DNA from: Candidatus Gugararchaeum adminiculabundum
GTDB taxonomy: Archaea > Micrarchaeota > Micrarchaeia > Burarchaeales > Gugararchaeaceae
Assembly (NCBI GenBank): GCA_902384795.1
Contig: CABMDC010000021.1
Coordinates: forward strand, 1 to 59,292
Reading direction: 5' to 3'
DNA length: 59,292 nt
Positions 26,934 to 30,303 of this stretch are shown here, piece after piece. Within the stretch, counting starts at the first letter, position 1. Each line of letters begins with the position of its first letter. The notes under the pieces are model-generated. The model worked only from the letters and a program-made list of their open reading frames with translations. It ran no database searches and had not been told where the DNA came from. A program made the translations under genes and the position numbers.

Positions 26934-27839
26934 ATGACCAGGACAGACCCGCCTAACAGGATAACACTGCTCGTTGCACGGCACGCCGAAGTTTCTCGGA
27001 CTACCAAGCCCAATGGCCATTGCCTGATTGGCGGCGCACAGGGCAATACTCATCTCAGAGGTTTCACGCTAGGCAAAGGTCTGGACTCAAGCGTAAGGCG
27101 CGAAATCGCTGCAAAGGGCGCAGAGCTGGCAAAAAAACATCCATTAGTTGATGCGGTTTACACTGGCGGCCTTTTCAGGGGAATTGAAACTGCCGAATGC
27201 TTAATAGAAGGCTACAATCTTGCCGGCGCAAAAATAACGACCGGCAACCAGCTCTCACCGGAACAGCCTCAGGCGGATGTGAGGATAACTGAGCGTGATT
27301 ATGGCCCTGTTTTCTCCAGTGTCATGCACGGCATATTCGATGACGATCTTTTTCTCACTGTGGCACCTGCCAGGGGATGGCTTGACGGAATAAGCATTGA
27401 TGTTCTGAAAAATCTTTTCCCAGAGGACTGCAAACGAATCAATAGCAGCGATGTGCTCGATTATTTGAAAGCGATAATAACTCCAGACGGAAAGGGCGTT
27501 AAGAAGATTGGGGCGTTAATCGCCCATTCAAATCTCGAGGCGGCCGGAATTGAATCAGATCAGCGGATAGAAAACCGCCTCTTCGATTTCGAGAATTCGG
27601 TGCTCAATGTTCATGTGCCAGGTTCTACAATACTCCTGGTTACCCACCGCGACACGATTAGTGTATGGTTAAACAAGGTTTCAAAGGATTCTAGTGGCAG
27701 ATATACCTGCGAAACACGTGCCGCGCTTCAGGCATGGGATGCAGCATATACAGAAAAAAAGATCGGCAATTACCGTGCGCTTGATTTTGTCGGCAATTTT
27801 GCCATTGAATTAAGCTATGGTTCCAGAGCAGCCGGCTAA
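26934..27839 (+). CDS. Histidine phosphatase (phosphoglycerate mutase-like) superfamily protein
   Basis: A 301-residue protein with the phosphohistidine motif VARHAEV (R16, H17), the second Arg block VYTGGLFRGIETAE, an acidic proton-donor region ITERDYG and the second His in LLVTHRDTI. These are the four catalytic landmarks of the superfamily, although the usual RHG is RHA here. The middle contains an insertion of about 100 residues of unknown role. Substrate cannot be deduced. It is divergent from the radical SAM gene and convergent with the reductase gene. Confidence 0.8.
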   Translation: MTRTDPPNRITLLVARHAEVSRTTKPNGHCLIGGAQGNTHLRGFTLGKGLDSSVRREIAAKGAELAKKHPLVDAVYTGGLFRGIETAECLIEGYNLAGAKITTGNQLSPEQPQADVRITERDYGPVFSSVMHGIFDDDLFLTVAPARGWLDGISIDVLKNLFPEDCKRINSSDVLDYLKAIITPDGKGVKKIGALIAHSNLEAAGIESDQRIENRLFDFENSVLNVHVPGSTILLVTHRDTISVWLNKVSKDSSGRYTCETRAALQAWDAAYTEKKIGNYRALDFVGNFAIELSYGSRAAG

Positions 27840-27844
27840 TTTCT

Positions 27845-29029
27845 TTACCATCCGTAAAATTCAGCCTGCGAATACTTGAAAGCAAACAAGGCAGTCAAAG
27901 CCCCTTTTGTCAGCAAACTAGGTCTAGCAATCAATTTCAGCCCAATTTTCAGTTTCTCCCTATTCCCCATCCCGCCCCTGGAAAAAGTCTGCGGCAATAT
28001 GGAGCTAACATAATCCAGTTCAGAATCGCTCAACCTGTACAGCGCTTCCTTCCCCCTAATCAATTTGGAATAGGCAGGAAACTCTTTCTTCCATTTCATT
28101 TCATATCCGCTCAACGCCCTCTTACTAATGTCCCCTTTTCCAATTGCTTCACCCGCGGTTTCAGCAGCCATTCTTCCGCTCATGAGCGAAAGCGAAGTCC
28201 CTCCTTCAAACAACGGAGATGTGAAGCCAGCCGCATCCCCCACTAACAAAAGCCCGTCGTCGTATGTGCGCGCCATAGGCCCGCTTTCAGGAATCGGCCC
28301 TCCGAAAGTCTTTGCAATTCTCTTCGCCTGCCATCCTTTTTGCTTCACAAACTCATCCAGGAAACCCTTGGCTTTGCTCATCTCATTGGTCACCAATCCA
28401 ACGTTCGCCCTTCCCCCTGATTTGGGAATCATCCAAAGATATCCGTGCGGTGCAAGCCTTGGCCAGATGTAGAAATCCAAATATCCCTCGCGTGGAATTC
28501 CCTCAATCAGATACTGCAATCCGGTCACTGTTTTGATTTTTGGATTAAGCTCCAAAAAGCGCGAGGCAACGGAAGCAGGCCCGCTGGCATCAATTACAAT
28601 TTTTGCCTCATATTCGCCTGCATTGGTTTTCACTTTCCAGGTTTTCGCATTTGCATCTCCATTAGCATTTCGCACTATTCCGCTCACTCTATTTTCCAAT
28701 TTAATCTCACACCCGTTTTTCTGCGCCTCATCCGCAATGAACTGCTCAAACAAATGCTTTTCCAGCACATAGCCGTTTTCACCAAGCACATTGGTCCCGC
28801 CCGAGGGGAAAATCACCTTCACCCCTTTCACCCTTTCACTAATCACTTTTTGCGGCAATTCCAGGCCAAGCCTTTGCGCGCCAATCTCGCTCAAACACTC
28901 GCCGCAGTGCACCGGCTCTCCAATGGTTTTGTGCTCTTCCAAAATCGCGGTTTTCAGCCCTGCCTTGGCGGCATGAAGCCCGGCGCTTGCGCCAGCAGGC
29001 CCTGACCCAATAATCACAACATCATACAT
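27845..29029 (-). CDS. Geranylgeranyl reductase family FAD-dependent oxidoreductase
   Basis: About 394 residues: the FAD-binding IIGSGPAGASAGLHAA near the N-terminus, HCGECLSEIG, and the second dinucleotide motif LLVGDAAGFTSPLFEGG. The family saturates the double bonds of digeranylgeranylglycerophospholipids, giving archaeal membranes their phytanyl chains. I chose ATG 29029 (MYDVVIIG), because the longer frame to 29173 is a low-complexity GC-rich translation of the hairpin element at 29067-29168. That element may lie in its 5' leader. The gene converges with the histidine phosphatase gene. Confidence 0.9.
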   Translation of the reverse strand: MYDVVIIGSGPAGASAGLHAAKAGLKTAILEEHKTIGEPVHCGECLSEIGAQRLGLELPQKVISERVKGVKVIFPSGGTNVLGENGYVLEKHLFEQFIADEAQKNGCEIKLENRVSGIVRNANGDANAKTWKVKTNAGEYEAKIVIDASGPASVASRFLELNPKIKTVTGLQYLIEGIPREGYLDFYIWPRLAPHGYLWMIPKSGGRANVGLVTNEMSKAKGFLDEFVKQKGWQAKRIAKTFGGPIPESGPMARTYDDGLLLVGDAAGFTSPLFEGGTSLSLMSGRMAAETAGEAIGKGDISKRALSGYEMKWKKEFPAYSKLIRGKEALYRLSDSELDYVSSILPQTFSRGGMGNREKLKIGLKLIARPSLLTKGALTALFAFKYSQAEFYGW

Positions 29030-29066: not shown

Positions 29067-29168
29067 AAAGCGATGCGCCGCGGTGCTTGCAGCTCGACTG
29101 CAAGCAGTCGCGCCCCGAGGCGCGACCAGCCGCTCGAGCGGCTGCCGCCCATTGGCGGCATCGCTTTT
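29067..29168. repeat. Multi-hairpin inverted-repeat element
   Basis: An outer 10-bp stem (AAAGCGATGC at 29067-29076 with GCATCGCTTT at 29158-29167) encloses four adjacent hairpins: GCTTGCAG/CTGCAAGC (29085-29105), GTCGCGCC/GGCGCGAC (29107-29126), CAGCCGC/GCGGCTG (29127-29144) and CCGCC/GGCGG (29145-29158). It lies between the divergent reductase and the orphan gene at 29236. No second copy was seen in the window. It could be a structured leader RNA or a small mobile inverted-repeat element. Confidence 0.7.
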
Positions 29169-29235: not shown

Positions 29236-30303
29236 ATGGAAAACTTGGACCAGAAGCCGCAAAGGACCGAGCCTCATAAGCCCCTATCCCAGCAGGCAAA
29301 GCCGTTTTTCCAAGCCCTAAGCCAGCCCCTTCCAGGATTAACCGGCCTTGACCTAATCTACCCGAAATTTCCCCAGTTCGGGTTCGCGTCCGCTTCCATT
29401 AACACCTATGCGAGCTTTTTCCAGCAAATGGACGCCGAGCTCATGAGCGCAATGATTTACGCCAGAATCAGGGAAATGCAGGACACCTCTTTCGAAGAAC
29501 AGATGCGCGTGCAGCAGCTCGTTTTTCAGCCCTCCACTCAGGCAATGCGCGAAAAGGATTTCCTCCCCAAGGACAAGAAAGGAGGAGGCATGGCAATGCG
29601 CGCAGTGCAGAATGAAATAAATCTCATGGCTCGCGAGGGAATCGGCGATTCCTGGCTCGCAAACCAGCGAAACTTGCGCGTCACCTGCTCCTCGTTCATG
29701 GAAGCAACAAAAGCCAATATGAATTCACTCAGCAACCCCTATGGCACCTTCCTGCTTTCCGCCGAAGTCACCAGAAGCGGCGAATCCCTGGCAAAGCTGA
29801 ATACAAAGGCAATGCAGGCAATGGTCAAAATCCAGCAACAGTATTTCAAGGACCAGGCCCAGGGGATTCCCTGCATGCGCCTGATTTCCTCGCGCGAAGC
29901 CCTTGCCCTTTATTTCCAGGAAAACCCAGGCCAATACCAAAAAGTCCTGGGCGAGTTTCTCAAGCTTCCAGCCTCCGCACTCTCCCGGTTCTCAGAAAAC
30001 GACCTGAAGGCAGAGCTGCTGCGCAAGGGCAGGAACAGGCCAGATTATCTGGCGACCCAGGTGAAGAAGGCGCTTTACCGGCTCATTGGAAAGGGCAAGG
30101 CCAAGGAAACAAAAAGTGCAATCTCCGCCAGAATTGACAATGATTCCGGCTGCATTCTCATCCAGCCAAACGAAGGAATTGGAAAAGAGCCGCTGCTGAA
30201 CGCATTCAAAAAACTCGCTTCAAAAAACCAGCAAAAGAAAACTAGGAAGAAAAAGCCGCAAGAAACTCCTGCTCAAGAAAGTGCAGCTTGCCTGGGACAA
30301 TAA
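29236..30303 (+). CDS. Hypothetical protein, mostly alpha-helical, unknown
   Basis: A 355-residue protein I do not recognise. It has no signal peptide or membrane segment. The N-terminal 45 residues are Gln/Pro-rich, the middle is helical with many Met and Gln, and the C-terminus is strongly basic (KKTRKKKPQ). A frame extension upstream to 29083 translates only the hairpin element, so ATG 29236 is chosen. A TATA-like ATTAAATAT at about 29205-29213 supports it. The last 62 nt overlap the convergent dphB gene. Nucleic-acid binding is a guess from the basic tail. Confidence 0.68.
   Translation: MENLDQKPQRTEPHKPLSQQAKPFFQALSQPLPGLTGLDLIYPKFPQFGFASASINTYASFFQQMDAELMSAMIYARIREMQDTSFEEQMRVQQLVFQPSTQAMREKDFLPKDKKGGGMAMRAVQNEINLMAREGIGDSWLANQRNLRVTCSSFMEATKANMNSLSNPYGTFLLSAEVTRSGESLAKLNTKAMQAMVKIQQQYFKDQAQGIPCMRLISSREALALYFQENPGQYQKVLGEFLKLPASALSRFSENDLKAELLRKGRNRPDYLATQVKKALYRLIGKGKAKETKSAISARIDNDSGCILIQPNEGIGKEPLLNAFKKLASKNQQKKTRKKKPQETPAQESAACLGQ

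Follow-up and report, generated by a model that had tools for sequence, protein, structure and literature searches.

Background

Several kinds of dispersed or recombining DNA, REP/BIME palindromes and integron attC sites among them, fold as single strands. The element described here resembles them in that respect, and differs from them in architecture.

Closer relatives are found among insertion sequences and MITEs. In IS903B, which belongs to the IS5 family, the ends read GGCTTTGTTGAATAAATC and the direct repeat is 9 bp long (PMC10569121). The likeness of our element to IS903, IS903B and archaeal insertion sequences of the IS5 family extends to ends of the form GGCTYTGTWGAA-, a 9-bp duplication and an IS5-type DDE transposase (PMC10569121); unlike them, it has no transposase gene of its own, and it carries a cloverleaf. 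A well-described prokaryotic MITE, QMITE2 of Coxiella, has repeats of 7-9 bp and a strongly folded transcript (PMC10969869). As in such MITEs, the family studied here is short, non-coding, multicopy and intergenic, with terminal repeats, a target duplication and a strong predicted fold. MITEs are typically AT-rich (review PMC10969869), whereas the present interior is GC-rich, contains a multibranch junction and hairpins that are hypervariable yet paired, and often outlives the ends.

A third point of comparison is the hairpin itself. Perfect stems are documented to arise and to be preserved by template switching (PMC8794818), and the hairpins that it maintains in RNA genes keep these stems through multi-base paired changes, as ours do. 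Those hairpins pass through G-U intermediates; the present element, in contrast, is a mobile DNA in which G·T pairs are very few.

The window, that is, the whole stretch of 59,292 nucleotides analysed, contains a block of stacked inverted repeats. We argue, with a probability of roughly 0.82, that this block is an old copy of a MITE of the IS5/IS903 kind that has lost its ends, and that the symmetry of its interior comes mainly from arm correction at the level of DNA.

A cloverleaf in a divergent intergenic region

The block sits in the divergent intergenic region between two genes: a geranylgeranyl reductase-like FAD protein (27845..29029, - strand; Pfam GGR_cat and DAO), whose start lies 37 nt from the core, and a gene at 29236..30303 on the + strand. 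The latter and the ORF at 26934-27839 (+), both beside the block region, have no Pfam match, and Rfam has no match at the block.

The cloverleaf core of this MITE-like element extends over 29067..29167. Its + strand orientation is the best-scoring one with two covariance models of the family (cmsearch), the first, R1, built from three copies and the second, R2, from 26: R1 gives 103.6 bits on the + strand and 46.2 on the - strand, and R2 gives 98.8 and 50.5. The conserved orientation is thus opposite to that of the reductase.

Read on the + strand, the core begins with the 5' arm of an outer stem, AAAGCGATGC (29067..29076), a perfect inverted repeat of the 3' arm GCATCGCTTT (29158..29167). Next come GCC (29077..29079), paired with GGC at 29154-29156, and GCGG (29080..29083), which pairs with CCGC at 29145-29148 and closes the junction; GCC lies within the conserved motif GCCGCGG, and the junction-closing cells are paired in 99% of cases among 26 copies. 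Three hairpins follow: H1 (29084..29106), a perfect 9-bp stem with a CTCGA tip; H2 (29107..29126), a perfect 8-bp stem with a CCGA tip; and H3 (29127..29144), a perfect 7-bp stem with a TCGA tip, which is also a perfect palindrome of 18 nt. The segment CCGC-CCATT-GGC (29145..29156) then provides the 3' side of the junction, a 5-nt bulge and the GGC step; its motif CCGCCAATTGGC is conserved in sister copies.

The stacked repeats that the first-pass annotation had reported are all located by this description. It had also counted four hairpins within the outer stem: the outer stem and three of them stand, and the fourth does not. This ‘fourth hairpin’, TGCCGCC-CATT-GGCGGCA (29143-29160), competes with the GCGG/CCGC and GCC/GGC pairings, and the minimum-energy fold of the block forms the latter around the CCATT bulge. 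Relatives keep these pairings as well, and one copy in genome G003, CCGCCAATTGGCAG, is unable to form the fourth hairpin. Since this hairpin is only an alternative fold, lost in relatives, the block is best described as a four-way junction with three hairpins.

A dispersed family

A nucleotide search (BLASTN) of the block against its own genome, G000, proposed as a check in the first-pass annotation, returns no other copy. The covariance search proposed with it reveals about 15 places in that genome, copies in relatives, and massive covariation. Between genomes, blastn finds an 84% match, at an unrelated locus, in another family of the same order. The motif GCCGCGG...CCGCCAATTGGC is common to three such copies, whose hairpins are wholly different yet paired.

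With R1, we find about 15 copies in G000, and, in three further genomes of its order, about 12 (G006), 6 (G001) and 2 (G003, where a third is found only with R2); eleven genomes from two other families of the order yield no copies with R1. Applied to the 295 sampled genomes of the class, R2 finds copies in six, the new ones being G081 (9 copies) and G093 (2 copies). Both models were trained on the family itself and their E-values are rough; the copies of G081 and G093, which are outside the training set, score up to 91 bits. The six genomes span five families of the class: in its cloverleaf form, the family turned up solely in one archaeal class, and there in a few scattered genomes (6/295 sampled). 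The copies are in nearly all cases intergenic, and have no coding capacity. Such a patchy distribution, with a different locus each time, indicates mobility, and there is good support for placing the element in a mobile family.

Some copies carry additional structures. In G081, extra hairpins lie within or beside the arms of the cloverleaf (L140:3104-3192, L134, L135:1-160 and L137:1-160), and two contigs of this genome start at the identical point inside such a hairpin. Seven other copies (L072, L075, L078, L084, L085, L089 and L093:570-654) have a second module on the 3' side, made of GCGCA-linked A/T-rich hairpins. The pattern GCCGCGG-N-CCGCCAATTGGC also turns up in 13 viral contigs, by chance, as the matching fold is absent from them.

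Terminal repeats and target duplications

Complete copies measure 145-319 bp from end to end. They are bounded by the inverted repeats GGCTCTGTAGAAA...TTTCTACAGAGCC and flanked by target duplications of 8-9 bp: GAGAACAA/GAGAACAA in G006:C41, TCGAAAACT/TCGAAAACT in G003:C7, GATAAATCT/GATAAATCT at L134 in G081, and AAAGCAAC/AAAGCAAC in G006:C62. Among 48 copies, 13 have both ends (with at most 3 mismatches), 14 have one, and 21 have none. The duplication of 8-9 bp is perfect at L078/L096, L081, L093 and L134, and near-perfect at L133, L138, L139 and L144.

The family thus has the features of a MITE: terminal inverted repeats, target duplications, and short, non-coding, multicopy and intergenic copies. 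At the window copy, the first two were looked for and neither was found, and it is by its core that this copy would be assigned to the family.

When the contigs of 84,980 species are scanned for pairs of such ends spaced as in a MITE, 29 loci emerge, all archaeal, many of them with perfect 9-bp duplications. They belong to Micrarchaeota, Woesearchaeota, one unclassified DPANN genome, Methanoregula and Methanofollis, so that one IS5-type transposon end links DPANN archaea with methanogens; no viral contig matches the terminal-repeat pattern. In the Woesearchaeal and methanogen elements, R2 detects no cloverleaf and the interiors differ, so these elements and the Micrarchaeal ones share only their ends. 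In the literature searched, no paper contains GGCTCTGTAGAAA and none deals with cloverleaf MITEs; the cloverleaf interior appears to be undescribed so far.

The 2.4-Mb draft genome of Methanofollis sp. STE_20 (G311) contains 274 exact GGCTCTGTAGAAA ends. Many of them form foldback elements of 230-320 bp (e.g. L177, L178), a very heavy MITE load. Other pairs of terminal repeats in this genome are 0.9-1.4 kb apart; no transposase lies inside.

A transposase with matching ends

The Woesearchaeote that holds the MITE at L158 also contains an 883-bp element (L189) with ends GGCTCAGTAGAAA / GGCTCTGTAGAAA, which encodes a 270-aa DDE_Tnp_1 protein (Pfam, 3e-11). This transposase is closest to IS5 models; its match to NCBIfam IS5_2, at 2.7e-34, scores 118.9 bits, under the 140-bit cut-off. 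A second case is plasmid pMETHO01 of Methanomethylovorans hollandica, where an element of about 1.0 kb between GGCTCTGTAGAAA and GGCTTTGTAGAAA, with a 7/9 duplication CAAAATTCG/GTAAATTCG, encodes a relative that RefSeq names IS5 family transposase. No viral relatives of the transposase were found.

Two marks of an IS903-like element are present: ends of the form GGCT-TGT-GAA with a 9-bp duplication, and an IS5-family transposase between such ends. Because the same ends bound small archaeal elements and IS5-family transposase genes, we classify the family as MITEs of the IS5/IS903 type. The fallback suggestion of the first-pass annotation, a miniature element, is borne out by the copies elsewhere, their terminal repeats and target duplications, and the transposase with the same ends.

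In the genome of the window and in the other cloverleaf genomes, which are draft assemblies and may miss genes, the search for a transposase bounded by these ends was negative; mobilisation would thus occur in trans. Four other candidates were rejected. Transposases of the IS6/IS240 and ISL3 groups have similar ends, and their domains occur in 0/16 (PF13610) and 0/20 (PF01610) of the element-bearing genomes tested; the PF13737 transposase is present only as a broken relic, without such ends; and an IS5-like transposase with a SWIM zinc finger (G000, G001, G006), considered as a partner of the RAYT type, occurs in 68/295 class genomes, without these ends. The genes for the latter (L186:1423-2658 in G000:C12, L184 and L185) have the SWIM-type zinc finger at the N-terminus, with one intact copy per genome. 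Across the 68 genomes they are often fragments, and no terminal repeats were recognised.

The history that we propose is the following. An IS5-type DDE transposase acting in trans would recognise the ends and insert the element mostly near gene starts. After insertion, the ends would decay while the interior persists. Paired changes in the arms would come mainly from template switching or hairpin-templated repair, and whole hairpins would also be exchanged between copies. Selection for a DNA hairpin or cruciform may add to this; selection on a transcript would not be the main cause.

Paired change: DNA or RNA

Among 26 copies, double changes occur at 43 of the 44 pairs, and pairing holds in 95.5% of the alignment cells, compared to 67.6% in shuffles (0/500 as good) and about 30-49% in slid controls; since the copies are related, these cells are not independent events. 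By base-pair covariation alone, the family would pass as a structured RNA with near-certainty. It is the scarcity of wobble pairs, together with the terminal repeats, that says mobile DNA.

According to the common view, an RNA under selection passes through G·U (PMC8794818). For a palindrome kept as DNA, no such passage is expected. In 43 copies, the inner pairs comprise 1320 Watson-Crick pairs, 16 G·T, 9 A·C and 31 others, and the excess of G·T over A·C is not significant (p = 0.23). A strand-symmetric stem finder gives 1002 Watson-Crick pairs and 19 mismatches, of which 1 is G·T and 4 are A·C. That G·T is hardly commoner than A·C points to the maintenance of palindromes at the level of DNA rather than RNA. 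As copies diverge, two-sided differences climb from 2% to 45%, while one-sided differences stay constant at about 8-10% per pair; arm asymmetry is therefore transient. Young copies of G081 that are otherwise similar differ in H2 and H3, the two arms of each hairpin having changed at once. It is thus likely, but not proven, that arm symmetry is kept by DNA-level maintenance.

Selection could also act on the folded DNA as such. One version of this idea is that the core is a functional single-stranded or cruciform site, with a role in recombination, in nucleoid organisation or as the target of a structure-specific transposase, the terminal repeats being a secondary acquisition. The arms, which use Watson-Crick pairs only, the conserved bulge and junction, the YCGA-type tips (exactly TCGA in 43/129), and the perfect cores retained by copies without ends would all suit such a site. 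We nevertheless hold it unlikely: no dedicated protein was found, the distribution of the element is not followed by any transposase family tested, and arm correction alone could produce the symmetry. Another version keeps the mobile DNA and gives it a self-correcting cloverleaf, in which hairpins are replaced, swapped or added and arm symmetry is always restored; the folded DNA would itself be functional, in transposition or for a structure-specific host factor, and would persist after the loss of the ends. This version is tentative and also rather unlikely. The perfect core of copies without terminal repeats might also point to a function for the host.

With an old MITE whose arms are mainly corrected at the DNA level, the preferred reading, the family becomes a natural test case of how much ‘RNA covariation’ template switching of DNA can produce. 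It also marks recently active small transposons in archaea hardly studied for such elements.

Gene context

The first-pass annotation had suggested that the block could be a regulatory RNA in the 5' leader of the reductase mRNA, a reading to be abandoned if the block were absent from close relatives, showed no covariation and were covered by no transcript. As to absence and covariation, only half of this is borne out: the covariation is massive, without a convincing G·U excess, and the sister copies lie elsewhere. In a broader form, the family would be a cis-regulatory leader RNA, or a regulatory RNA spread by a transposon, that controls the downstream gene. Besides the strong covariation, the element is directed at the downstream gene in 28 of the 37 copies for which one was called (p = 0.003), and transcription must cover some copies: L014, for instance, is located between thiD/thiN and a TATA-like box. 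However, tandem contexts alone give 14 versus 8 (p = 0.29), G·T at 16 versus A·C at 9 shows little tolerance of wobble, there is no match in Rfam, and the copy in the window runs antisense to the reductase gene. At L069 and L070, a TATA-like box seen by eye lies between element and gene; such boxes, again read by eye, stand variably before or after the element, and sister copies are on either strand.

The neighbours are also unrelated, rather than leaders of related genes in which the element has a constant place: they include thiD/thiN and, recognised by eye, enolase-, PCNA-, LysW-, LemA- and agmatinase-like genes. Because neighbour functions, orientation and promoter position vary, the leader-RNA reading is unsupported at the reductase, and we consider it improbable for the family. 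A simple gene finder places 14 copies in tandem in the same sense, 12 in divergent regions, 8 in tandem antisense and 0/34 in convergent ones, counts that are approximate since, at the window copy, the real divergent gene escaped it. Such a context is easier to reconcile with insertion close to gene starts than with a leader RNA.

As for a stacking of palindromes by chance in GC-rich intergenic DNA, which commonly holds short hairpins, it is already refuted, with matches to the family at E 1e-14 to 1e-20 in other genomes and with a fold that reaches -72.6 kcal/mol as RNA (z -5.1; 0/200 dinucleotide shuffles equal the block) and z -7.8 with DNA parameters (0/200 shuffles as good), in agreement with the initial impression that the repeats are well above chance.

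In a Micrarchaeota draft genome, G003, contig C7 encodes a sigma-70-type factor (L005:385-1425, - strand; Pfam regions 2 and 4). It is probably not a contamination, because its neighbour is a GMP synthase subunit of archaeal type and the contig also carries two cloverleaf elements.
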